From Hymenobacter sp. BT559 (GTDB lineage: Bacteria; Bacteroidota; Bacteroidia; Cytophagales; Hymenobacteraceae), in contig NZ_JAELXV010000002.1 of assembly GCF_016427535.1 (NCBI RefSeq), positions 62,001-126,000 of the forward strand: 64,000 bases of DNA. The letters are read 5' to 3'. The first letter of the stretch is position 1. The number at the start of each line of letters is the position of its first letter. The notes under the pieces are model-generated. The model was not told the origin of the DNA. It did not search any database and worked only from the letters and a program-made list of their open reading frames with translations. Positions 4,462 through 18,359 of the stretch are shown one piece after another. The position numbers and the translations under genes were made by a program.

Positions 4462-5154
4462 TCACTTCTTTATCGCTTCGAGCGAGCCTATTTTGGGCTG
4501 AATCTGGATGATAAAGCGCTTATTAAGTTCTTCTTGTGCGTCGCGGTAGCGGTTTACGCCGCCGAAGCCACTGCCCGCCGGTACGACTTCGTAACGCGGG
4601 GCCGGAAATACAATACCCGCCTCGCGCCACAGTTGGTACACCGCCAGCGCCCGCAGGTAGCTGAGCTGGCGGGTGGCCGGCCCGTCGTAGTTCTGCGGCG
4701 AATTGTAGGAGTAGGTACCGTCGGCCTGGCGGGTGGCGTAGCGGGCCGTGCGACCTTCGATAACTACCAGGTATTGAATGTTATCCTGCTCATTGAGCGA
4801 GCTCAATTGGCTAACCAAAAACCGACCGGCCTGAATCAGCTTCGGTTTGTAGGCTTCTTTTAAAACGGGGCTGCTCGGGTCGAAAATGACGTCGAAGCTC
4901 AACTCGTAGCGCTTGAAATCCTTATTGTAAATAAAGTACTTCGGGTTTTCCAGCCGCTTCAGGGCCTGCTTTATCTCGTCGATTTTCTTTTTCTCTCGGA
5001 GCTGCACTTTTAGTTGCGCGTTGGCGCGCACCAGACCCTGCTGCTTGTCCTGAAATAGCTTGTAGCTCAGCACAAACAACACCAGCATCGTCAGAAACAA
5101 GGCCGTCATCAAATCGACGTAGCTGGGCCAGAAAAAGTCTTTGCTTTGCTTCAT
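4462..5154 (-). CDS. MotB/ZorB-like stator subunit with OmpA-type domain
   Basis: 230 residues. One N-terminal transmembrane helix (about 15-33) is preceded by SYVDLMTALF; the aspartate at residue 14 sits where MotB-type proteins carry the ion-binding Asp, so the channel is probably active. A coiled-coil stretch (about 37-68) leads to a C-terminal OmpA-like fold (strand FDVIFDPSSPVL, helix, VVIEGRTAR, then a YLRALAVYQLWREAG helix) that would bind peptidoglycan. It follows the MotA-like gene with a 2-bp gap, so the pair is co-translated. Flagellar genes are absent, so this is not a flagellar stator. Zorya ZorB is the closest described architecture, but this operon lacks ZorC/ZorE. Confidence 0.75.
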   Translation of the reverse strand: MKQSKDFFWPSYVDLMTALFLTMLVLFVLSYKLFQDKQQGLVRANAQLKVQLREKKKIDEIKQALKRLENPKYFIYNKDFKRYELSFDVIFDPSSPVLKEAYKPKLIQAGRFLVSQLSSLNEQDNIQYLVVIEGRTARYATRQADGTYSYNSPQNYDGPATRQLSYLRALAVYQLWREAGIVFPAPRYEVVPAGSGFGGVNRYRDAQEELNKRFIIQIQPKIGSLEAIKK

Positions 5155-5156
5155 GG

Positions 5157-6668
5157 CTAGCGAATGGGACGGCCTTTTTTACCCAAAACGGTGCGCTGAA
5201 ACCAGTTGGGCTCGGTCAACTGCTCTAGCACCGCATTGGTGCGGTCGAGTTGGCGCAGTAGCTCGCGCTGTACCTGCTCGTCGCGCTCCAGGCGCAGCTG
5301 CAAGCCAGCCAGCGCCTCGGCGCTGCGGCGCGCCTGCGCCTCCTGCAACTGATTGAGGGCCTGCTGCTGCGCTGGTAGCTGCTGAAACGGGTTCAGGTAC
5401 TCGACTATCTTCTGGTACACGTTGTCCTTGTTAAGCTGCCGGAAGTAGGCATCCCATTGCACGTGGGCCGACTGCGCCTGCGCCACAAACTCGTCGCGGC
5501 GCTTTTCGAGCACCTCGTTCATCTTGTGAGCGTCCTCGCTCAGCGCCTGCGTTACGCCCTGGCTAATCTGCGAGAGCAGCGCCTGGTGCTGCCCAAAAAA
5601 CTGCGCCTGCTCCCGAATGCGGGCGTCGTGCTGTTCCAAGTAGCCAGGCACCTGCTTCAGAGCCGCCTCTAGGCTACCGAGGCGGTCGAGCAGGCTCGTG
5701 ATGGTTTGGGCCGTGTCGGCGCCCTTGCTCACGGCTACGTTCAGGCTCTGCTGGTACCCTAAGAACTTCTCAAAAGAGGCCGCGCTCTCATCTACGCGGT
5801 CAAACACCTTAATGGTAGCGTTGGCCAGCTCGGTGTAGCCTATCTGTTGCAGCTTTTCGAGGAAGTTTTTCTGGATGCTGATATTCTCCGTGATGCGGCT
5901 GATGAGCGGCGTAAATTCCGCGATTTTCGAGAAAAAATCAGCCTGTATTTTCGAGAAAAAGTCCTGGTTAAATGTGTCCAGCACCGCCTTCAGATTGCTC
6001 ATGCTGGCCTGCATGTCCGAGTTGAGCCGGGGTAGTAGTGCCTTTTGCAGGAAGTTGTAGTAGCCGTTTTTGTAACGGTCGCGCTGGGCGCGGGCCGATT
6101 TTAGCAGTTGGTTGCCCCCTAGGGTCAGCGCCAGACCAATAAAGCTGCCACTCATGGCGATAAGAATACCGCCCAAAAAGTGCGTCACATCGGCGTTATT
6201 AAACGATGACTCGCCCGCTGCTGCCTCGCCCCCAAATGGGTTAACCAACGCTATCAGGCCCAGAATGGCACCTAGGAACGTGCCCAGCAGCCCCAGGTAA
6301 AGCGGCGTCGAAATCTGCGCCTCAATCTCCTGGTCGAGTAGCGCGGCCTCGCGCTCCGAGATGTCGCGCAGCGTGTTGAAGTCGGCCGCCGCGCCCTTGT
6401 TGGCGCGCAGGTAGTCGTTGGTGTCCGTGATGATTTGGGCAAACTCAGGGCTGGGCCGGTTCACGGTGAGGGCGTCGTACTCCTGGGGCACGTAGCTGTC
6501 GGTGTAGCGTAGTTCGGCGTTGGCATCCACGGCCTGCACGCCGAGCTGCGCCACTTCGGGATACATAGCCTGCACCCGCGCAATGAGGCGGCGATTCGTC
6601 AGGAAAACGAATACTTGCCAGGCAATTAGCCCCAGAATCAGGACGACTTCGAGTAGTTGTAAGAGCAT
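5157..6668 (-). CDS. MotA/TolQ/ExbB-like stator subunit with very long cytoplasmic coiled-coil tail (ZorA-like)
   Basis: 503 residues. An N-terminal TM helix (about 4-24) and a TM pair (about 122-142, PLYLGLLGTFLGAILGLIAL; about 163-184, FLGGILIAMSGSFIGLALTL) carry the small-residue GTF/SGSF pattern of MotA/TolQ/ExbB proton channels. The remaining 300 residues (about 190-490) are charged, Gln/Leu-rich and predicted mostly helical, ending in QFVLGKK-like basic residues. A tail this long is unlike flagellar MotA or ExbB, but is a described feature of ZorA in Zorya defence. The partner MotB-like gene follows after 2 bp. The likely role is an inner-membrane ion-driven motor or sensor that couples to the cytoplasmic components of the operon. 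Confidence 0.75.
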   Translation of the reverse strand: MLLQLLEVVLILGLIAWQVFVFLTNRRLIARVQAMYPEVAQLGVQAVDANAELRYTDSYVPQEYDALTVNRPSPEFAQIITDTNDYLRANKGAAADFNTLRDISEREAALLDQEIEAQISTPLYLGLLGTFLGAILGLIALVNPFGGEAAAGESSFNNADVTHFLGGILIAMSGSFIGLALTLGGNQLLKSARAQRDRYKNGYYNFLQKALLPRLNSDMQASMSNLKAVLDTFNQDFFSKIQADFFSKIAEFTPLISRITENISIQKNFLEKLQQIGYTELANATIKVFDRVDESAASFEKFLGYQQSLNVAVSKGADTAQTITSLLDRLGSLEAALKQVPGYLEQHDARIREQAQFFGQHQALLSQISQGVTQALSEDAHKMNEVLEKRRDEFVAQAQSAHVQWDAYFRQLNKDNVYQKIVEYLNPFQQLPAQQQALNQLQEAQARRSAEALAGLQLRLERDEQVQRELLRQLDRTNAVLEQLTEPNWFQRTVLGKKGRPIR

Positions 6669-6831: not shown

Positions 6832-8193
6832 TTAGCTGATGTTCAGCCGCGCGCGCTGCACTACTTGCCAGCCATCGGCGTGGCGTTGAAGCTGGCCGGG
6901 GGCCGCCGCCGTTACCAGCGTAATGCGGCCACCTAGGGGCGGGTCGTAGTCGAAAAACTTTTGCAGCCGCGTCAGCCCGTCGCCGATGAGGCGGGCTTGG
7001 TCCACGTTGGGGTTAAGGGTAAACGCGGCTTGGTCGGGGGTGCGCGGGTTCACGGTCAGCATCAAGGCCAACTGGGGCAGGGGCGTATCCACGATTTTGC
7101 GCTCTTCCAAAAATGCCGATTCCTGCACCGGGCCGTAGCGCGTGGCGGCCGGCTGCGTGGCGGCCGGCGCAGCGCCAACCATTTCTTCTATCGACAGCTC
7201 TTCGGCGGCTGGCGACGCTGCGGCAGCCGGAGGCGTTGGAGCCGCGGGGGCTTGCGCTTCGGCCGCCTGTGCGGCCGCCGCCGCGGCCGCTAGCGACGTA
7301 GCAGAAATGTGCGCTGCTGCCGCTGGTGCCGGGGCAGCAGGCGTGGTGGGGGCGCCTACGAGCTGCTTCTGCAAGTCAGCCAGCTGCTGCTTAATCTGCT
7401 GAAGCTCTTTGCGAAGCTGCTGATTCTGGTTTTGGAGCTTGCGAAATTCTACAGGATTCATATCAGAAGAAGTTTCGGTTTCGACTGGCGCCAGCGGGGC
7501 CGCGTGCTGCCGGTGATGACGCCGTTTGCCCTTCGAGCGGCTGGAGGCAACGCCAAAGCCCAGCGCCGCACCTAGCAGGGCCAGTACCGCCCCCGCTAGC
7601 CCCGGCGGCATCCCGAAATAGCGCGGCTCTAGCGGCTGTGCGGTGTAGGTTGGGGTGGCGGGCAGTTGCCCTTCCGGAGCCGGGTTTTCATCTTCGGCCA
7701 CCGTTTGAGAGGCACTTGCGGGCTGGGCTGCCGCTGGCGAGGTTGAGTCGGCTGCAGCTACCACCGCCGAGGTAGTACTACCCGCGGGCACGAACGGCTC
7801 CAGGTCTACTTGCAAGGATTGCAGATTGACTTTCGCCAACGCGCCAGTTTTGCTGGTCTTGCGTTGGTTGACCTCTGCTATAATGGCCTGCACCACTTGC
7901 GTGGGCGTGGCCGGCTGGCCTTTGCCAACGCGGGCGAGTACGGCCTTCCAGAGTGACCCTAGCTCGGCTTTGTCGTTTGGCTGGGTGAGCACCCATTTGC
8001 TGAAGTCAGTACCCGTGGCCCATTTCGTGGTGGGCGGCGTGGCCTTCTCATCAGCCCAGACGCGCCGGGCGGTGGCCGTCCAAATCTGGCCCTTCACACT
8101 GTCCTCGCGAGTGGGGGTCGAGGCGGTTTGCCCCAGCCCCACCCGGCTTACGCCCAGTAAGATGGTCAAGCTTAAAATGCGGTGAATGTGCAT
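6832..8193 (-). CDS. Membrane-anchored coiled-coil protein of the actin/tubulin operon (unknown family)
   Basis: 453 residues that I do not recognise as a named family. An N-terminal signal peptide (about 1-21, ending GLGQ) leads to a probably periplasmic region (about 22-190) with an EF-like helical stretch near 76-113, a single TM helix (about 198-216), a basic stop-transfer segment (SKGKRRHHRQH), a coiled coil (about 248-279, Gln/Leu heptads), an Ala/Pro-rich linker (about 280-350) and a compact C-terminal domain (about 355-453). Topology therefore puts the coiled coil and C-terminal domain in the cytoplasm. It starts 9 bp after the actin-like gene, implying translational coupling. It may tether the cytoplasmic ATPase/GTPase to the stator. 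Confidence 0.6.
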   Translation of the reverse strand: MHIHRILSLTILLGVSRVGLGQTASTPTREDSVKGQIWTATARRVWADEKATPPTTKWATGTDFSKWVLTQPNDKAELGSLWKAVLARVGKGQPATPTQVVQAIIAEVNQRKTSKTGALAKVNLQSLQVDLEPFVPAGSTTSAVVAAADSTSPAAAQPASASQTVAEDENPAPEGQLPATPTYTAQPLEPRYFGMPPGLAGAVLALLGAALGFGVASSRSKGKRRHHRQHAAPLAPVETETSSDMNPVEFRKLQNQNQQLRKELQQIKQQLADLQKQLVGAPTTPAAPAPAAAAHISATSLAAAAAAAQAAEAQAPAAPTPPAAAASPAAEELSIEEMVGAAPAATQPAATRYGPVQESAFLEERKIVDTPLPQLALMLTVNPRTPDQAAFTLNPNVDQARLIGDGLTRLQKFFDYDPPLGGRITLVTAAAPGQLQRHADGWQVVQRARLNIS

Positions 8194-8202
8194 GATATGA
8201 GC

Positions 8203-11200
8203 TTAGTGAGCGGAACCATGCAGCACCTGCGACAGCACATAGAGCGCGTGCTTGAGGGGCAGGAAAAACAGCGTTTCGGGAATAGGCTCGCCGGCGGGCA
8301 GTGTGTTGGCGTAGCGCTGGCGACCTAGGTTGAACGAGTCGGCCAAGGCGCCCGTGAGCTCGCGCAGCACGAGGCCGGGCGGGTTTTTGATGCCTAGGTT
8401 GTGCATGGCGGCCACCAAGTCGGCGTCGGTGAGCAGCAGCGTGAGGCACTTCTCGACGTTGGCAATAACGGCGTTTTTGACTTCCTCCGTGATGTCGCTG
8501 GGGTAGAGCGGGCGGTTTTCGGTGGCGTCTTCAGTGCCGGTGCCCACGGGCTGCACGATGGGCGGCACCTCGGCGGTGCTTTCGGCATCGACGCCGGTGG
8601 CTAGCACGCCGCCGTTGGCGGTGGTTTGCTTGGGGTCGTCGGCCAGCACGATTTTGAAATTGGCCGGTGCGGGCGTGCCCATTACCTTGGTCAGGATGAG
8701 GCTCGCCACCTGCTCTAGTGGGCGCAAGTTGCTGGGGCACAGCAGGCGCAGGTACAAGCTGCCGCGGCCCGTGAAGCACAGGTAGCGCGGCGCCGTGAGG
8801 CCGCGGGCGGCCGTCACCTGCCCTAGGTGGTACACGATGGCCCCAAAGTGCAGGTAGAACAGCACCCGCAGGTGCTGCGCCATCAGCAGCCGCTCGCCAA
8901 ACTGGAATTCGCGCTCGTAGTTAAAGAGCAAGCTGGCAACTTCTTCGGAGCCAAAAGCTGGGTTAGCTTCGACTACCGCCAGGCACTTCACGGCCAGCTC
9001 GGCGGCCTTGGTGTGCGGCAGCGGGTGTGCCCGAATGCTGTCGAGGCCAAAGCGCACGAGGCCGTTGTCTTTGGTGCCGCGCACGTCGGCCGCACCGTCG
9101 CCCCACAGCTCATTACCCGCAAAGCGGAACGAGGTGCTGAACGCCGGGTGGTGTTTGCGCGGGCCGCTGGGGTTGGCTTGCTGGTCAGAGTAAAACAGCA
9201 CGTCGGAGGTGCCGCCGCCGATGTCGATGAAGGCCGCGTTTTCGCCGGGACCGGGCGTTACGAGGCCGCGCCGGGTCAGGAAGAAGTACGGGGCCGACGA
9301 TTCGGGCAGGTAGGTAGTGCCGCGGTTGGTGTGGAAAATCTCCTTAAATAGCGTATCCCACTCGCGCTGGTACAGGTCGCGGCTGAAGGCCGAGAAGCTG
9401 AGCGGCGCAAACCACACCACCTGCGTGGCCGACACATTGCCGCCGTGCAGCGCCGCTTTATACTTGAATAGCAGCAACATCTCGCGGAAGAACATCCGCA
9501 CGCGGTGGCGGGCAGCCTCGCCGGTTTCGCCCCATTTCAGGTTGGTGTGGTACGAGTCGTTGGTTTCTTCCTCGGTGTTGATGCCGAAGCCCACGTTGAC
9601 ATTGGCCAGCAGGCGCGGCGGCTCGATGGAGAAGCTAGCGGCCTCGCTCGTGGCCGTGCGAATCGGAAATTGGTACGGCGACCCGCCCGCACCCACAAAC
9701 GAGGGCACAAACTCGCGCTGCTGATACCGCTGCCAACGCCGCAGCTGAATGCCGTGCGCCGGGTCTTCCTCAATGCCCCGGTACAGCTGTTCGTAAGCTT
9801 GGTAATCAGTCTCTTCCGAAGACTTCTTGAGTAAGGCCACCGCCGTATCCTCCGGCCCAAAGTTGAAGGGCTGCGGCGGCTGGCTGGGCCCGTCGTGGTA
9901 GGCCACGTGGGTGTTGGTCGTGCCAAAGTCGATGGCGAAGCGGAACTCCTTGGTGCCCTGGCGCACCTCGCGCCACCTAGGTACCACGAGCGCCTGCCCA
10001 GCAGCCGGTGCGGGGCTCGCCACCACCACGTAGTCGAAGGGCGTGCCCCTGATTTCGTAGTACGTGCTGCCTTCGTCGGTGCTGCTCTTGCGGGTGCGGG
10101 GGTAGGCCGTGGCGCTCTGCTCGGTGCCGGTGGGCGATAGCACCCGTCCTTGCACGCCAAATTGCAGCTCTACCGGCTTGTGTACCAAACTAGGGTCGAT
10201 GTTGTTGGCATCGACTAACATCACCTTGTAGAAGTCGTTGAGCTGCGGCGCATCGGCGATTTTCACGAAGGGAAAAACCGACAAGCCCACGTTGGTCACC
10301 AGTAGGCGACCTAGGCCCTCGGTGCGCGGGTTGGGGTAGTAGGCGCGCTCATAATCAACGGTGAAGCCACCCGCCACCGGAATGCGCAGGCGCACCCGCA
10401 CGCAGGCCGGGTCGAGCTCCATCGTGAGTTGGGTGGCCAGCTCGGCCGCCGTGAAATAGTCGAAGTACAGCGGCTTCACCGGCAGCAGCGGCCAGCACGT
10501 GGGCTTGTAGCCAGGCGCGGTTTTGAGCTGGCCGGTCACGAAGCGGCTGCCATCGACCTCGTAGGGCACAGTGAGCAGCGTTTCTTCGAGTAAGTCGTTG
10601 AGGGTGAGGTAAGGGTAGGCCAGGTCGGGACCAGGCAGCGTGCGGTCAGCCAGGGCGCGGGGGTCGCTGGCGGGCACCTTGTTGCCGCTATCGCCGAGCA
10701 GCGAGTTGTTATAGTAAAACTTGCCCGGTGCTTGCAGGCCAGGGCGCAGCACCAGCGGCAGCGGGTTCGGCAGCGGCCAGCCCGGCACCGGCACCCGGTC
10801 GGGCCGAATGGTGAAATCGGAGTTGCGTAGGATTCCCTCGTCGGGGCGCACCCGCACGGTCACGCCCGCCACCGCCACCGGGTTGCCGGCCTGGTCGGCC
10901 AGGTAGGGGTAGTCGGCTAGCTGGGCGTTGCCATCCAGGCCCCACTTATTTAAGATGTTAGGGTCAAGTGCATTGCGCACGGCTGGGGCCAGCCGGCCCA
11001 GCGCTGGGTCGGCTACAAACTGCTGATAGATATAGTCCTGAAACGCTTGCTCGCGCTGACCTAGGGCCACGTAGCGACCATCGAAATAGTGGCCGCCACC
11101 CTCGGGCCGCTGCACCGCCAAGGCCCGCACGGCTGGTGCCGGAAAAAACACCGTGAGCGGCGAGGTGCCACCTAGCAGCTGCGGGGCCTCCTGCGGCGTG

Positions 11201-11664
11201 GCGCCGGGGAAGTACAGCAGATTCAGGTCGGTGATATTCGCAAAGCGCTTGTCGTTCAGGTACAGCGCTAGTGCCTGGGCCAACGGCCGGGTCTGCGGAT
11301 TGGCTTCGAGGCGAGCTAGCTCGGCGGTGCGGTTCCAAGTGCGCACGCTTAGACGCTGGCTGGCTTGCCGCCGCTGGTAGTAGTTGAATACCAGCTCCCA
11401 CAAGTCCCAAAACTGGCCCACCAGCCGGTGGTGTACCGAATCAGTTTGGCCGGGGTTGCTGCCCACGTAGGCCAGCGCCGTTTCGACCAGGTGCATGCGC
11501 GCGAAGGGCGATGGAATGGCTACGGCCACGCGCTCGGCCCGGCCGCCCTCGGGGTCGAGGATGCCGCTGGGACCTTCAATTTCATTTTTGCCGATTTTGC
11601 CGGTGCGGCCCCAGCCCTCGTGGGTGCTGGAGCCCGTGCGGTGCAGGCGAAGGATTTTGGCCAT
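8203..11664 (-). CDS. Giant actin/Hsp70-fold ATPase with a large unknown N-terminal region
   Basis: 1153 residues. Residues about 575-1000 show the actin/Hsp70/sugar-kinase nucleotide signatures: phosphate-1 FAIDFGTTNTH (579-586), phosphate-2 FIDIGGGTSDVLF (814-821) and an adenosine-type FTGRGS (964-969). The first 570 residues match no family I know; they are soluble, rich in Pro/aromatic beta-type segments. No signal peptide or TM helix is visible. The protein would be a cytoplasmic ATPase that might polymerise or act as a conformational switch. SrfB-like virulence-factor proteins, also large and with an actin-like fold, are a possible distant relation that I cannot confirm. It lies between the coiled-coil membrane gene (9 bp) and the tubulin-like gene (166 bp, containing a hairpin). 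Confidence 0.75.
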   Translation of the reverse strand: MAKILRLHRTGSSTHEGWGRTGKIGKNEIEGPSGILDPEGGRAERVAVAIPSPFARMHLVETALAYVGSNPGQTDSVHHRLVGQFWDLWELVFNYYQRRQASQRLSVRTWNRTAELARLEANPQTRPLAQALALYLNDKRFANITDLNLLYFPGATPQEAPQLLGGTSPLTVFFPAPAVRALAVQRPEGGGHYFDGRYVALGQREQAFQDYIYQQFVADPALGRLAPAVRNALDPNILNKWGLDGNAQLADYPYLADQAGNPVAVAGVTVRVRPDEGILRNSDFTIRPDRVPVPGWPLPNPLPLVLRPGLQAPGKFYYNNSLLGDSGNKVPASDPRALADRTLPGPDLAYPYLTLNDLLEETLLTVPYEVDGSRFVTGQLKTAPGYKPTCWPLLPVKPLYFDYFTAAELATQLTMELDPACVRVRLRIPVAGGFTVDYERAYYPNPRTEGLGRLLVTNVGLSVFPFVKIADAPQLNDFYKVMLVDANNIDPSLVHKPVELQFGVQGRVLSPTGTEQSATAYPRTRKSSTDEGSTYYEIRGTPFDYVVVASPAPAAGQALVVPRWREVRQGTKEFRFAIDFGTTNTHVAYHDGPSQPPQPFNFGPEDTAVALLKKSSEETDYQAYEQLYRGIEEDPAHGIQLRRWQRYQQREFVPSFVGAGGSPYQFPIRTATSEAASFSIEPPRLLANVNVGFGINTEEETNDSYHTNLKWGETGEAARHRVRMFFREMLLLFKYKAALHGGNVSATQVVWFAPLSFSAFSRDLYQREWDTLFKEIFHTNRGTTYLPESSAPYFFLTRRGLVTPGPGENAAFIDIGGGTSDVLFYSDQQANPSGPRKHHPAFSTSFRFAGNELWGDGAADVRGTKDNGLVRFGLDSIRAHPLPHTKAAELAVKCLAVVEANPAFGSEEVASLLFNYEREFQFGERLLMAQHLRVLFYLHFGAIVYHLGQVTAARGLTAPRYLCFTGRGSLYLRLLCPSNLRPLEQVASLILTKVMGTPAPANFKIVLADDPKQTTANGGVLATGVDAESTAEVPPIVQPVGTGTEDATENRPLYPSDITEEVKNAVIANVEKCLTLLLTDADLVAAMHNLGIKNPPGLVLRELTGALADSFNLGRQRYANTLPAGEPIPETLFFLPLKHALYVLSQVLHGSAH

Positions 11665-13465: not shown

Positions 13466-13876
13466 TTAAAACGGTGTGCGACGGGCGTGATTCGAGCCCC
13501 ACTTCAAAATCACTGAAAACAGAATAAACCAAAGTGGCGCTACCAACGTGTTGGTAATGATGAAGTAGCGCATATAGGGGTCGCGTACCGCGCCCGCGCC
13601 CATGCTCACTTGGTAAGCCAGCAAGGCACCTAGGCCGGCTACCAGCAGCAGTACCAGCAGCCAGTGCGTGGGCTTGTACATACCTAGGTGCGTAAGGGTC
13701 GGGATGGCATGATTGAAGATGTAGTAGAACACGACCACTAATGCCAGCGCCGTGAGCAAGGTGTAGAAGCCAGTGGTATTGAAAATCTCGGCTTTGTACA
13801 GCCCGTAAAGCGGCGATTTGCGGTCGTAGAAGAGCCCAATACCGTTCGTGTACAGGCTGTTAAAGAATTGTTGCAT
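13466..13876 (-). CDS. Small three-TM membrane protein of the actin/tubulin operon
   Basis: 136 residues of unknown family. Three hydrophobic segments are clear (about 36-57 ending IFNHAIP, 71-89 with LLVLLLVAGLGALLAY, and 106-124 with TLVAPLWFILFSVIL), with a basic C-terminus (HARRTPF) that favours a cytoplasmic end. There is no signal peptide. It starts 16 bp after the lipoprotein stop, so the two are probably translated together; a role in assembling the membrane part of the complex is an inference from position only. Confidence 0.6.
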   Translation of the reverse strand: MQQFFNSLYTNGIGLFYDRKSPLYGLYKAEIFNTTGFYTLLTALALVVVFYYIFNHAIPTLTHLGMYKPTHWLLVLLLVAGLGALLAYQVSMGAGAVRDPYMRYFIITNTLVAPLWFILFSVILKWGSNHARRTPF

Positions 13877-13892: not shown

Positions 13893-15206
13893 TTATTGGG
13901 CGAGGGCGAAGGTGGTGGTAAACACGGGCGGCAGGGCCTGCGGGAAAGCCCCGCGTACGCCGTTCATAATTTCGGTGAGGCGATAGGTGTGCGGCGCGGC
14001 GGTGGGTTGATTGTCGTTTTCGGTGCTACGCTGAGCCACCCAGGCCGGCATACTTGGTGCGGGTAGCGTCAGGCTAAGTTGGCCGCCCACCTTGGGGAAG
14101 TCGCTGAGCCGCAAGCGTAAAGTGTGAGTGTAGGCTTGCAGTTCGGGCACGCCGGTAGTGAGTTTAACAGAATTGGGCAGTAGTTGCACGCGGCCATTGG
14201 GCACTTGGGCTTGCAAGTGTTGAGCCAAGAAGGCGGGCTCACGCCAAGCGGCGGGCAGTTGGCGTAGGTCGAGAGCCACGGTGAAATCCACACCTTTCTT
14301 AACGTCGTCAACCTCCAGATTCGTACTTATACCCGCCCCGCCGTAAGAAATCGACCCATCGCCGCCCGGCGCTAGCGGGCTGCCAGCCGGCACCTGCGTG
14401 AGTACCGCCGCGTAGGGCACCCTAGGGAAGGTTAGCCCAAAGTACGCCTGCTGCGTAGCGGCCGAAGCAGCTGGCAGCACCTCATTCACATAGCGCGCTA
14501 CGGCGGCGGGCGGCCCAATTACCCAGATATAATAGGGTAGGGTTTCGCCCTTCAGCGGCCGCTGCTTGAGCGGGGTTTTCACGGCCGGGTGGTAGGTGCC
14601 GTAGAACTTCGACGTCTCGCTCAGCACGGCCACGGCTAGCCCTTTTTTGGTAACGGTCGCCAGTGCGTCGGTGATGTTGACGTTCATCAAGGCGCTGGTC
14701 GCCTGATTTTTGGGGCCATAGATGAAGTCGGAGACGACCACATTTACCTTATCGGCCGCTTGGGGCAGGGTTAGGATATTTTCGAGCATTGTGGGGAGCT
14801 CGGTACCTAGGGCGGCCTCGTGGGTGTCGCCCTGCACTATTTCTCGAAAGTGCGCATAGGTGCTAGCCTGCGGCGCCTTGTTCAGCGATAACCAAAACTT
14901 AGTATCGGCCACAGCCGGGCTGCTATTGGTACGCGAGGCCAGCAAGCTCACGCGCTGCTGAAACGCCGTGGGCTCGGTAGCCGTGGTATTGGCAGGCATG
15001 AAGCCGCGCATGCCGCCCGATAATTCCAGAAAAATATTGGCTTGGATGGGAGCCGCGGCGTCGGCCTTGGTAGTAGCTGCCGCTGGCTTGGTTGGGGTGG
15101 CTGCCGTGTCAGTCGTTGTTTTCGTATCGTCAACTTCCCCGCAGCTACTGAGCAAGACGCCGCCGAGCGCGCCCATCAATAGTGCTTTCGTAAGTGCAGT
15201 GTGCAT
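13893..15206 (-). CDS. Lipoprotein with degenerate vWA-like motif, first gene of the actin/tubulin operon
   Basis: 437 residues. Signal peptide with lipobox LLSSC (Cys at 22) and a low-complexity Thr/Ala linker (about 28-53). The mature domain opens IFLELSGGMRGFM (about 58-70), which resembles a von Willebrand A beta-strand plus DxSxS MIDAS motif in degraded form (ELSGGM), and VNVVVSDFIYG later matches the second MIDAS strand. A C-terminal beta-rich domain (about 260-437) follows. It would be anchored at the membrane, most likely on the periplasmic side. It is the first gene after the terminator behind the SNF2 helicase. The vWA assignment is suggestive, not firm. Confidence 0.55.
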   Translation of the reverse strand: MHTALTKALLMGALGGVLLSSCGEVDDTKTTTDTAATPTKPAAATTKADAAAPIQANIFLELSGGMRGFMPANTTATEPTAFQQRVSLLASRTNSSPAVADTKFWLSLNKAPQASTYAHFREIVQGDTHEAALGTELPTMLENILTLPQAADKVNVVVSDFIYGPKNQATSALMNVNITDALATVTKKGLAVAVLSETSKFYGTYHPAVKTPLKQRPLKGETLPYYIWVIGPPAAVARYVNEVLPAASAATQQAYFGLTFPRVPYAAVLTQVPAGSPLAPGGDGSISYGGAGISTNLEVDDVKKGVDFTVALDLRQLPAAWREPAFLAQHLQAQVPNGRVQLLPNSVKLTTGVPELQAYTHTLRLRLSDFPKVGGQLSLTLPAPSMPAWVAQRSTENDNQPTAAPHTYRLTEIMNGVRGAFPQALPPVFTTTFALAQ

Positions 15207-15359: not shown

Positions 15360-18359
15360 TTACCCCAGCAATTCCTCGATATCCTCCCGCGTCAGCGACT
15401 TAATCACGGCCTCATCGGTTGTTATCAAGTCGCTCACCAATTGCAGCTTGCGGCGTTGCAGGGCTAGGATTTTTTCCTCTACTGTGTTCTGGCTGATGAA
15501 CTTGTAGACGAAGACGGGTCGTTGCTGCCCAATGCGGTGGGCGCGGTCAATGGCCTGGGCTTCCACCGCAGGGTTCCACCAGGGGTCGAGGATGAAGACA
15601 TAGTCGGCGGCCGTGAGGTTGAGGCCTACACCGCCCGCTTTGAGGCTGATAAGGAAGATTTTAAGGTTCTTATCGTGCTGAAAGCGCTCTACTTCGGCCT
15701 GGCGGTCGCGGGTGTGGCCGTCTAGGTAGGCGTAGCTGAGCTGGCGCTCGTCGAGGCCCGCACGTACTAGAGCCAAGTGCTGTACGAATTGGCTAAATAC
15801 CAGTACCTTGTGTCCCTCGGCAATAACGCTGCGGAGCATACGCAGTATCTCGCGCATCTTGCCCGATTCGCCTTCGTATTTGTCGTCGGCGAGGCGTGGG
15901 TGGTTGGCTATTTGGCGCAGGCGCGTGAGGCCTTGCAGCAGCAGCAGTTGAGTGCCGCCGGCCGGTGTAGGCGCGTGGCCCTCCAGGCTTTCGAGGATTT
16001 TATTGCGGTAAAAGCTTTTGGTTTCCTCGTAAAACTGCGCCTGCTCCTCCGTGAGGGGGCAATAGCTGAGGTGCTCGGTTTTCTCGGGCAGCTCGCTGGC
16101 TACTTGGGCTTTATGTCGGCGCAGGACGAAGGGCTTGATGAGCGCGTGTAGCTTCTTGGTGCGGCTCTCATCCTGGTTCTTCTCGATGGGCTTCACGAAT
16201 TCCTTGCGGAAGAACGCCTGCGTGCCCAGCAGACCAGGATTAATAAAGGTCATTTGCGACCACAGGTCCATCGTGCTGTTCTCCACCGGCGTACCGGTGA
16301 GGATGAGCCGGTGCCGCGCTCGCAGCTGCCGCACGGCCTGTGCCGTAGTCGAAGAGGGGTTTTTAATGGCCTGCGACTCGTCCAGAATCACGTAGTCAAA
16401 CTGGTAGCTCGCCAGCAGCTCGGTGTCGAGCCGCACGATACCGTAGCTGGTCAGCACGATGTCGTAGTCGGCAAACTGGGCCACGTTTTTATCGCGGTAG
16501 GTGCCGGTGTACACGAGCAGCCGCAGGCTGGGGGTGAACTTACGCGCCTCCGCCATCCAGTTATAAACCAGTGAAGTAGGTAGCACGAGCAGCGAGGCTG
16601 CACCCTGGCTGGCGCCGCTTTCCTGGCGTTCGAGTAGCATCACCAGCGTTTGCACGCTCTTGCCCAGGCCCATATCGTCGGCCAGGCAGCCACCTAGGTG
16701 GTAGTCCTGCACAAAGCGCAGCCAGTTGTAGCCCGCCTGCTGGTAGGGCCGCAGCGTGCCCCGGAAGCCCACTGGTAGCGGCCGGTCTTCTACCGCCGCA
16801 AAGTCACGTAGCTTTTCGAGGCGGCGCGTGAGCGTGACGGTAGCAAGGTTATCCTGCTCTAGGTCATTAATTAACGACAGGTGGTGCCGGCGTAGGGCTA
16901 GCGGCTGACCTTCGGTTTCTTCTGCAAACGCGAACAGCTCTAGGTAGTCAGTAAACCACTCATCAGGGATGAACGCGACTTGCCCGTTGGGCAACCGATA
17001 CTCGCGGCGGCGCTGCAAAATGTAGGGCCGCAGCCGGATAAACGGCACGGCAAACTCGCCAAACCACACCGTGCCGCGCACGTCAAACCAATCACCACGC
17101 TCCTCGATGCCCACCTCAACCCGCACAGGGCCAATGAAATAATCCTGGCTAGCCGTTTCGCTGCCCTGCACCTGAAAGCCGAGCTCACCTAGTGCTGGCG
17201 CATTGTCGTGCAGCCAGCGGAAGGCCTCGGCCTTGGGCAGCGAGGCGTGGCCCTCGGCGTCGAGGGGCAGGCCGCGCTGGCGTAGTTCGTCGGCGCGGTC
17301 GTTTTCTTCCTTGGCCGAGCGCAGCAGGCGGCGGAAAATGTATGAGTCCGCATCTTCCTCTAGCTGCACGCTCATGGGGCGCGGCGGCGTAAGGGGCAGG
17401 TCGTAGGCGCCGTAGCGGAAAGTGAGGTTGAAAAACAACGGAGCTTCATCGGTGCCGGCGCCGGGCACTACCACGGGCTTAGGCAGCGGCACCCGGCCAC
17501 GCCTAGGTGGGCCGGGCGGGCGCACGGGCACCACAGGCGTGCCCGCGGCGGGTGCGGGCGGCACGTCCGAAAACGTGAGCTGGGGCCGGGCTAGGTAGCG
17601 CTCGGTGCGAATATCGAAGCCGCGCGCGTGCACGTCAAACGACTCCATGAGCGGGGCCACGAACTTCTGGAAGTAATTCTTCTCTACGGCCCGCGGCACC
17701 ACGATAAACTTCTTGTTCAAAAACGGCAGCAGCTTGCGCCCATCCACATCGTGGCGGAAATGGTACAGCACATTATCGACCATCAGCCACGCCGGCTGCT
17801 GGCACACTAAGACAGCGTTTTTAAATTGAAAATCAAGCTTCTGATTCTGGTACTGAATGGTAGGGAAGTAGTGCGTACCCTCCTCATTGCGCCGAAAGTG
17901 AAACAGGATAGAAGCCGGATTAGGGGCAAGCTTGAGCTCGCGCCAGGTAGGCTCGCCGTCGCGGCCCATGATAAACACTTTCTTTTCTTGCAACCCAGTC
18001 AGCAGCTTGGCCAGCCGCGTCTGGATGTAGCGGGCAATGGCTTCCTGCAAAGGCTTATCGCCTTTTTCGGGGTGGTAGGTTTTTAGAAAAAACTCGGCCG
18101 TCGTGATTTTGCGCGGCCAAAATTCTTTGATTACTGCCTCCTGCTGCAGCTCGTCGCAAAGCTTAATCAGCTCGTAGTCGTCATCTTCTAGGCCCTCGGC
18201 AAACTCGGGTGCGTTCTTGCTCGATACCATTTGGTGTTGCAGCGTGAGCTGCCCCCGGGGCCCCAGCTGCACAACGTGCGCCGAAAACAGGTGACCTAGG
18301 TATTCGTGAGCAAACAGCGAATAAACAAGTTGAAAAGGAAGAGAAGTAGAAACAGTCAT
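15360..18359 (-). CDS. SWI2/SNF2-family DEAD/DEAH-box helicase-like ATPase
   Basis: 999 residues. The first 530 are a lineage-specific region with a Pro-rich linker near 265-305. The SNF2 ATPase follows: Walker A DDMGLGKSVQT (about 561-571), Walker B variant LDESQAIK (about 659-666), motif III LTGTPVENS, and the helicase C lobe with FSQFVQHL, SLKAGGVGLNLT and the DRAHRIGQ motif. Such enzymes translocate on duplex DNA and remodel protein-DNA complexes. Similar proteins are common in Bacteroidetes chromosomes, so it may be ordinary, but in Zorya type I an SNF2-class helicase (ZorD) works with a MotAB-type pair, and here it lies 153 bp upstream of the stator operon. A terminator separates them. 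Confidence 0.85.
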   Translation of the reverse strand: MTVSTSLPFQLVYSLFAHEYLGHLFSAHVVQLGPRGQLTLQHQMVSSKNAPEFAEGLEDDDYELIKLCDELQQEAVIKEFWPRKITTAEFFLKTYHPEKGDKPLQEAIARYIQTRLAKLLTGLQEKKVFIMGRDGEPTWRELKLAPNPASILFHFRRNEEGTHYFPTIQYQNQKLDFQFKNAVLVCQQPAWLMVDNVLYHFRHDVDGRKLLPFLNKKFIVVPRAVEKNYFQKFVAPLMESFDVHARGFDIRTERYLARPQLTFSDVPPAPAAGTPVVPVRPPGPPRRGRVPLPKPVVVPGAGTDEAPLFFNLTFRYGAYDLPLTPPRPMSVQLEEDADSYIFRRLLRSAKEENDRADELRQRGLPLDAEGHASLPKAEAFRWLHDNAPALGELGFQVQGSETASQDYFIGPVRVEVGIEERGDWFDVRGTVWFGEFAVPFIRLRPYILQRRREYRLPNGQVAFIPDEWFTDYLELFAFAEETEGQPLALRRHHLSLINDLEQDNLATVTLTRRLEKLRDFAAVEDRPLPVGFRGTLRPYQQAGYNWLRFVQDYHLGGCLADDMGLGKSVQTLVMLLERQESGASQGAASLLVLPTSLVYNWMAEARKFTPSLRLLVYTGTYRDKNVAQFADYDIVLTSYGIVRLDTELLASYQFDYVILDESQAIKNPSSTTAQAVRQLRARHRLILTGTPVENSTMDLWSQMTFINPGLLGTQAFFRKEFVKPIEKNQDESRTKKLHALIKPFVLRRHKAQVASELPEKTEHLSYCPLTEEQAQFYEETKSFYRNKILESLEGHAPTPAGGTQLLLLQGLTRLRQIANHPRLADDKYEGESGKMREILRMLRSVIAEGHKVLVFSQFVQHLALVRAGLDERQLSYAYLDGHTRDRQAEVERFQHDKNLKIFLISLKAGGVGLNLTAADYVFILDPWWNPAVEAQAIDRAHRIGQQRPVFVYKFISQNTVEEKILALQRRKLQLVSDLITTDEAVIKSLTREDIEELLG

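Follow-up and report, generated by a model that had tools for sequence, protein, structure and literature searches.

Ion-driven 5:2 motors power the flagellum, outer-membrane uptake, gliding, secretion and Zorya phage defense. The locus studied here, in a stretch of 64,000 nucleotides of Hymenobacter sp. BT559 DNA (the window), raises the question of what a membrane protein of this class, endowed with a long cytoplasmic tail, does among genes for tubulin-like and actin-like proteins. The gene product is an ExbB/TolQ/ZorA-type membrane protein in which three transmembrane (TM) helices are followed by a mostly helical tail. Arguing by analogy, we lean slightly towards the interpretation that this protein and its ZorB-like neighbor would form a ZorAB-type ion-driven motor, acting as an exchangeable output or anchoring module of a tubulin-actin cassette.

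The locus and its seven-gene cassette

The reading frame of the ZorA-like protein is intact and begins with ATG, and a gap of 2 bases separates it from the ZorB-like gene. The pair makes up the last two genes of a seven-gene cassette, the order of which is vWA-like lipoprotein, small membrane protein, tubulin-like protein, actin-like protein, one-TM protein, ZorA-like protein and ZorB-like protein (Table 1).

Table 1. Features of the cassette and its upstream neighbor, with positions in the window
Feature	Position	Strand	Basis
ZorA-like motor subunit, 503 aa, with 316-residue helical C-terminal tail	5157..6668	(-)	ORF, model, fold searches
TM helix 1, residues 3-25 (limits by eye)	6594..6662	(-)	sequence and model
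TM helix 2, residues 119-142, Thr130 in 45/45	6243..6314	(-)	alignment and model
TM helix 3, residues 161-187, Ser175 in 45/45	6108..6188	(-)	alignment and model
Cytoplasmic helical tail, residues 188-503; last 24 residues net +3	5160..6107	(-)	model and composition
ZorB/MotB-like partner, 230 aa: one TM with Asp14, OmpA-like C-terminal domain	4462..5154	(-)	profile matches
453-aa cassette protein: signal peptide, one TM, coiled-coil stretch	6832..8193	(-)	by eye and weak Pfam matches
1153-aa protein, actin/Hsp70-type ATPase motifs in C-terminal half	8203..11664	(-)	motifs, profile
Tubulin/FtsZ-like protein, 494 aa	11831..13315	(-)	PF00091 and PF13809 matches in relatives
136-aa membrane protein, about 3 TM segments by eye, cassette member	13466..13876	(-)	sequence
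Probable lipoprotein, 437 residues: invariant Cys22, vWA-like domain (about 50-245), second beta domain	13893..15206	(-)	model, alignment
SNF2 helicase, 999 residues, upstream of cassette	15360..18359	(-)	not a stable member (adjacent in 7/49 loci)

Membrane core of the ZorA-like protein and its ZorB-like partner

Taken alone, the ZorA-like sequence of the window gave only weak, unrelated matches in Pfam and NCBIfam and none in PADLOC at E ≤ 1, and it was absent among the MotA_ExbB matches of its own genome. When 45 members of the family were scanned one by one with PADLOC (E ≤ 0.1), two ZorA2 models were matched by 15 and 12 of them, while a third ZorA2 model (best 1.4e-7) and one ZorA1 model were matched by 8 each; a relative from Parabacteroides matched ZorA1 at 1.4e-7. 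The LmuB and LeoC models were also matched by 8 of the 45 each (best 9.4e-5 and 1.6e-4, respectively); these are coiled-coil defense models and no motors, and the matches are read as coiled-coil matches. Against PDB sequences, the profile of the 45 proteins met no motor protein, the best matches (0.012) being coiled-coil or other unrelated chains, and a profile of 18 rows placed TolQ at 0.16, under a coiled-coil chain at 0.014. A tree of the ZorA core, computed from 17 rows and 114 columns, showed not a single starred branch and was set aside.

The AlphaFold2 model, built from the 45 sequences, had a mean pLDDT of 72 and a pTM of 0.46. The first 250 residues were mostly at pLDDT ≥80 and residues 258-351 mostly below 50, and the modelled helices 2-33, 121-142 and 158-273 contain the three TM segments. 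Foldseek returned ExbB first (E 0.002, probability 1.00) and ZorA of 8qyd at E 0.005 (probability 0.99), the top range being 0.002-0.005. With VIA-align, the scores of the model against ExbB (Z 11.0, rmsd 4.5, 199 aligned), ZorA (Z 10.9, rmsd 6.7, 214 aligned) and TolQ (Z 10.8, rmsd 4.3, 196 aligned) were tied, at a Z level of about 11 that, according to the warning of the program, helical proteins can attain by chance. Indeed, unrelated helical chains came directly below (CorA, Z 9.9; SNARE complex, 9.4). A stronger argument for kinship than the Z values is that the first 21 rows were all ExbB, TolQ or ZorA. Three of the five ZorA rows end at model residues 256-259 and the other two at 239 and 213, and the ExbB rows end at 220-233.

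From both fold searches, the region alike to ExbB, TolQ and ZorA comprises approximately residues 1-260, with no Foldseek E-value below 0.001. An earlier note on this DNA had proposed a MotA/ExbB-type subunit and a comparison with ZorA structures; the ZorA model matches, Foldseek and VIA-align bear out the first, and the comparison places the region just mentioned. The residues Thr130 and Ser175, each kept in all 45 sequences, were matched to the Ser/Thr ring by alignment with ZorA1 and ZorA2.

Concerning the partner, which the same note had considered MotB-like, the assignment was confirmed by its TM aspartate and by profile matches to ZorB. The protein of the window itself matched ZorB1 of PADLOC (1.8e-8). 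The profile of 32 sequences matched 8vvn_B, the type I ZorB of Shewanella (8.1e-10, covering positions 5-210 of the 220 in the profile), as well as 8qyd_F at 1e-5 (TM part) and the type II ZorB 8vvi_A at 0.002. Asp14 is present in the 31 rows that have that column, and also in the remaining row (Parabacteroides) if its start is set upstream of the annotated one. By correspondence established by eye, Arg168 and Arg213, found in 32 of 32 rows, are the counterparts of the wall-binding arginines of Zorya, and the position of the wall-binding His is occupied by Arg in 19 rows, Met in 9 and other residues in 4. In the part of PMC11890865 that concerns the wall-binding site of ZorB, this site includes a His that mattered.

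Tubulin-like, actin-like and lipoprotein partners

Of the 17 tubulin-like members, 16 matched PF00091 (best 3.9e-5) and 13 matched PF13809, Tubulin_2 (best 1.7e-4), at E ≤ 0.1. The tubulin-like protein of the window had no PF13809 match, and its own genome gave none at E ≤ 10; the tubulin-like profile found nothing relevant in the PDB. Tubulin_2 is the family described as FtsZ-like by Makarova and Koonin, in the excerpts of PMC9871819 and PMC2875224 used here. In the actin-like protein, the motifs D-F-G-T-x-N-T, D-I-G-G-G-T and G-x-G-S show little or no variation among 13 sequences, and the best PDB matches of the profile were an actin family protein (0.004) and then MreB (0.033). In a draft genome (L191:3-4892), tubulin-like and actin-like domains share one frame of 1630 codons that reaches the contig edge; this single case, which may be a natural fusion or a lost stop, would suggest contact between the two proteins.

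In the lipoprotein, Cys22 is found in 52 of 52 sequences, as are a metal-site-like E/D-x-S-x-x-M motif and Asp160. Its model (pLDDT 85) gave in VIA-align about 43 of 50 rows of vWA type, by reading of titles, with Z 5.8-6.8, below the trusted range. Foldseek gave first an archaeal Sec23/24-like protein (ArnAB, E 0.003) and mixed results after it; Pfam gave no vWA match and the profile search found nothing. Since the Z values are below the trusted range, it is likely, rather than proven, that the modelled domain is a vWA domain.

Together with Zorya ZorAB, the closest known kind is that of the FtsZl1/vWA/OmpA operons (PMC2875224), which likewise include an OmpA-type domain and membrane proteins and which would share with the cassette a Tubulin_2-related protein and a vWA-like domain. 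The differences are that neither a protein kinase nor a P-loop GTPase, both reported in PMC2875224, was found by Pfam among the cassette proteins, and that the tubulin-like protein, with its 494 aa, is shorter than the FtsZl1 type protein, which has 1051 aa and includes a long coiled coil (PMC2875224). The kinase or P-loop GTPase is described as frequent, not universal, in the excerpts of PMC2875224 used, where no actin-like operon member is listed, and a term search of its main text found no mention of MotA or ExbB. The gene set of the cassette was not found described in titles and abstract starts of the open-access papers searched, a scope that takes in few subscription journals, and neither the section of PMC11890865 used nor PMC2875224 describes it. 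The motor class and the kind of operon are each familiar, the combination being new as far as found in print.

Conservation of the cassette in Hymenobacter and related genera

Relatives of the ZorA-like protein were collected from public genomes, and the loci of the best 80 of 197 relatives were analyzed. They belong to Hymenobacter, Pontibacter, Adhaeribacter and Rufibacter (Hymenobacteraceae), plus one Solirubrum, which has no family at NCBI. Single-sequence searches among these best 80 of 197 found the ZorA-like gene in 80 loci, the actin-like gene in 79, the ZorB-like gene in 78, the lipoprotein, 136-aa and tubulin-like genes in 76 each, and the gene of the fast-changing 453-aa protein in 49, with all seven genes in 44. 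Sufficient length for a test of gene order was available at 76 loci, and in all 76 the genes found had the same order and strand; the six genes other than the 453-aa one were present in 75 of these, the exception (L063) being truncated by the contig end. The 453-aa protein (window 6832-8193), the member least found by these searches, contains a long Ala/Pro-rich stretch. The flanking genes vary among subclades, and the commonest flanking cluster occurs in 19 of 73 loci.

Within the genus, the ZorA-like gene is present in 36 of 37 genomes, own included; the lone genome without it is 82% complete and has a tubulin-like match. A genome of the same family (G573) gave no actin-like match. In a sample of the phylum, the ZorA-like profile matched 7 of 395 genomes, 4 of them of the same genus, own included. 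This distribution would suit a core function of the cassette in Hymenobacter better than that of a scattered defense island.

Relationship to Zorya and to phage defense

The ZorA-like and ZorB-like proteins resemble those of Zorya types I and II by the ZorB profile match, the ZorA model matches, the fold of the TM core, the TM Asp, the Thr/Ser positions and the long helical tail. They differ from Zorya by the tubulin, actin and vWA-like partners, the near-universal presence in the genus, a wall-binding site of the ZorB-like protein in which, by eye, the His is not kept, and the tail end of the ZorA-like protein, which is basic or, in two relatives, a TM helix. Concerning partner genes, PADLOC gave no match to ZorC, ZorE, ZorF or ZorG in eight window proteins. 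The SNF2 gene matched ZorD1 models at 5.9e-118 and, better, DpdE at 9e-148 (PADLOC), it fell far under the NCBIfam cut-off for ZorD (237 of 1500 bits), and it was rejected as a stable ZorD-like member, being adjacent in just 7 of the 49 loci whose upstream DNA was long enough. Since the SNF2 gene is an unstable neighbor and none of the other Zorya partners was found, the cassette is not filed as a Zorya system.

A function in phage defense is nevertheless conceivable. In such a Zorya-like immune system, ZorAB would sense the disturbance of the wall or membrane at injection, and the tubulin-like and actin-like proteins would replace ZorC and ZorD as effector or sensor. Swappable last modules, such as the ZorAB-like pair would be here, are usual in defense systems. 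The strong match of the SNF2 helicase to ZorD1, the low count in the phylum sample, 4 of the 7 genomes being of the same genus, and an uneven occurrence beyond the family are further points compatible with defense, and ZorAB itself acts in phage defense, as stated in the portion of PMC11890865 used.

Moreover, a ZorA-like/ZorB-like pair has been found in such company in Parabacteroides distasonis (NZ_OY725823.1, L111:11953-16072), on a record listed as a plasmid yet carrying lepA. The pair lies there behind a DarT-like gene (PADLOC 3.6e-14) and a DUF6939 gene (7.2e-67), the latter with a match to the DarT1-associated NADAR antitoxin just below cut-off (9.9e-6) and a weak SduA match (2.8e-4), and an integrase precedes the DarT-like gene by about 7 kb. 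No other cassette gene, actin and tubulin included, was matched in the 29 kb around the pair, and the tubulin profile matched nothing on the record, in a run that had no positive control of its own. Judging from the sequence, this locus is possibly a Zorya variant with an ADP-ribosylating effector. Two other settings were observed. At L124:5098-12127, which is Zorya-like by eye, genes for a 1473-aa helicase-like protein, a ZorA-like protein, a ZorB-like protein and an HNH-like protein stand beside restriction-modification genes. In the Spirosoma linguale plasmid pSLIN01 (L200:1-6863), a ZorA-like/ZorB-like pair lies between a DNA methylase, an unknown 881-aa gene and an HNH endonuclease.

What speaks against defense as the function of the Hymenobacter cassette is its presence in nearly the whole genus, the greater closeness of the SNF2 protein to DpdE and its infrequent adjacency, and the fact that Pfam, PADLOC and NCBIfam identified neither a nuclease nor a known effector in the seven proteins of the cassette. 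The ten flanking proteins of the window gave no convincing PADLOC system, and the flanks of the 73 loci look ordinary, by eye, in the 14 largest clusters. A defense-island context was discarded, the flanks of the window having given just a desaturase-type model, a short LmuA match and two mad2 matches, all taken as generic enzymes. We regard defense as possible, although well short of probable.

Cassettes with and without the motor outside the family

In the order, strong matches to the actin-like profile were obtained in 79 of 291 genomes, 44 of the own family and 35 outside it. Before this count, 19 of 98 genomes were dropped because their matches were weak (5.7e-5 to 9.7e-4) and for the most part located near the actin phosphate motif; among them, G474, G498 and G549 (about residues 710-834, in frames of 1179-1246 codons) may be distant relatives. 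Neighborhoods outside the family were inspected in 22 hand-picked genomes with 23 loci (16 of the 35 genomes and 6 from the phylum searches). The lipoprotein, the 136-aa protein, tubulin and actin were found in one complete stretch in 15 loci. This set leaves out L186, L191 and L195 (contig ends), L123 (broken genes, genome 13% contaminated), L192 and L193 (distant), and L119 and L194 (one genome, split cassette); L124, a Zorya-like locus without cassette, is outside the loci counted.

The ZorA-like and ZorB-like genes follow, after one further gene, in six of the 15 (L122, L181, L182, L184, L189 and L190), while the other nine are complete cassettes without the motor (L177, L178, L179, L180, L183, L185, L187, L188 and L196). 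A ZorA-like match at E ≤ 0.001 was found in none of the nine motor-less genomes, in a search in which G040 and the Parabacteroides record did match. The motor is an exchangeable part of the cassette, and it can be absent. Near its position, six of the nine loci (L177, L178, L183, L185, L188 and L196) have a protein with one TM segment by the scale used here, and the one-TM proteins of cassettes devoid of ZorAB are perhaps an alternative module. That of L178:13548-14849 ends in a WG repeat (8.6e-7), and that of L185:15198-16511 gives an SH3 match that stays under the cut-off of Pfam (1.1e-4).

The nine motor-less genomes, together with the Parabacteroides pair without actin or tubulin match nearby, mean that the motor and the tubulin/actin cassette are each found without the other; docking between them is thus needed by neither side, although it may occur where both are present. 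Other arrangements were seen. The cassette of G040 is split, with the lipoprotein, the membrane protein and tubulin at one site and actin, a 453-like protein and the ZorA-like protein at another, where no ZorB-like gene is beside the ZorA-like one. Proteins of the 453-aa type occur in two and three copies at L180:12301-14797 and L195:104-3872, respectively, with a C-terminal ending that is similar by eye. Thermonuclease-like genes, also recognized by eye, adjoin the ZorB-like gene at L189:5116-5799 and L122:7990-8553.

The tail of the ZorA-like protein

The earlier note had claimed a ZorA-style helical tail of about 300 residues, rich in Gln and Leu. The length and the helical character hold, as the tail has 316 residues and is mostly helical in the AlphaFold2 model (helices after TM3 at 297-342, 348-414, 417-485 and 489-494), with pLDDT below 50 over most of 258-351, along the path of the tail. 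As to composition, Gln is enriched (12.3% versus 5.3% before residue 188) and Leu is not (12.3% versus 15.5%). The hydrophobic periodicity observed in the four long tail helices was reached by 1, 0, 0 and 2 of 500 shuffles, and that of the whole tail by 10 of 500. The C-terminal extensions of Zorya ZorA comprise residues 236-696 (type I) and 100-378 (type II), according to the excerpts of PMC11890865 used. With ExbB and TolQ, the protein shares the fold of about residues 1-220 (Z ~11, the level that chance can reach), and it differs from them in size, the two ExbB-type proteins of its own genome having 235 and 295 aa in total versus 503.

Expressed as the share of the commonest residue per position, conservation of residues 188-237 (0.74) equals that of TM3 (0.74), the value for TM1 being 0.44; further along the tail it is 0.68 at 284-312 and 0.64 at 405-440, and 0.52-0.53 in the lowest stretches. 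Since tail conservation rises up to the level of TM3, the tail is under constraint. This bears on the idea of an envelope energizer like TolQR, ExbBD or GldLM, in which ion-motive force would be passed outward to the lipoprotein and the tail would be a mere cytoplasmic anchor. Such a function would fit a core fold as near to ExbB and TolQ as to ZorA, a cassette with a lipoprotein and membrane proteins, and near-universality in the genus. It is however unlikely, because the conservation of 188-237 goes beyond what an anchor needs, and matches to TonB, TolA and GldM are absent among the cassette proteins (Pfam, NCBIfam).

The end of the tail suggests a different possibility. In the distant relatives L119 and L184 it is a hydrophobic 19-mer (mean KD 2.07 and 2.37), predicted to be a TM helix, so the tail has to return there to the membrane. 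In Hymenobacter and its kin, the final 24 residues carry a net charge of +2 to +5 at all 80 loci, and this peptide presumably resembles the membrane-targeting helices of MinD and FtsA; in the model, a helix break is located near residues 343-347, approximately midway along the tail. These features would agree with a looped tail, in which the helices lead away from the membrane and return to it, an amphipathic peptide or a TM helix fixing the C-terminus there. On the other hand, the confidence of the model is low where the turn would be, and the ends of L189 and L190 are net acidic. The ZorA controls are also amphipathic by the same measure, one ZorA2 end being net +3. Because of the acidic ends and the amphipathic controls, the return to the membrane is a hint only, and we consider the loop doubtful. 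Correlated arm lengths, tried as proof of a hairpin, turned out weak (r 0.33).

A straight five-helix rod with its tip docking the actin-like or tubulin-like protein, a form of the docking proposed in the earlier note, would agree with a long helical tail as in ZorA (excerpts of PMC11890865) and with the fixed gene order with actin and tubulin, yet it seems improbable, given that the Parabacteroides protein has a similar tail with no tubulin match on that record and that cassettes exist without any ZorA-like match. The tail stretch ~286-310 was considered as an actin/tubulin-specific site and dropped, because the Parabacteroides tail, which follows the family pattern by eye, carries it too.

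Proposed mechanism and significance

By analogy with MotAB and Zorya, five ZorA-like subunits would be arranged around two ZorB-like ones, giving an inner-membrane motor whose ZorB subunits could extend to the cell wall. The constant part of the cassette would be the vWA-like lipoprotein, the small membrane protein, the tubulin-like GTPase, the actin-like ATPase and, in most cases, a one-TM adaptor. In response to an envelope signal or load, ZorB would engage the wall, ions would pass at Asp14, the ZorA ring would turn or shift, and the ZorA tail would relay this movement to the cytoplasmic NTPases or to the 453-aa adaptor. Since they are fixed neighbors, the tubulin/actin pair or the 453-aa adaptor are the best guesses for the target of the tail. 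The subunit families, the ion-path residues, the gene order and the possible absence of the motor are the computed parts of this explanation. Similar motor terms are used for Zorya in a summary of its model given in a 2026 review, in the part of it used here (PMC12904381).

A more specific picture would be that of an ion-driven rotor acting through its tail, which may loop to the bilayer, on a paired tubulin-actin assembly under the membrane, the motor being one interchangeable head on a widespread tubulin-actin-vWA chassis. We offer it tentatively, as it has the smaller chance of being right.

If an ion-driven motor is a constant operon partner of tubulin-like and actin-like proteins, it would be connected to a cytoskeleton, and the cassette would make the purpose of FtsZl1/vWA-type operons testable in culturable bacteria. 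The occurrence of ZorAB-like pairs beside DarT-like and NADAR-like genes in one record and beside tubulin and actin in others points to ZorAB as a portable module, a matter of relevance to the origin of Zorya.
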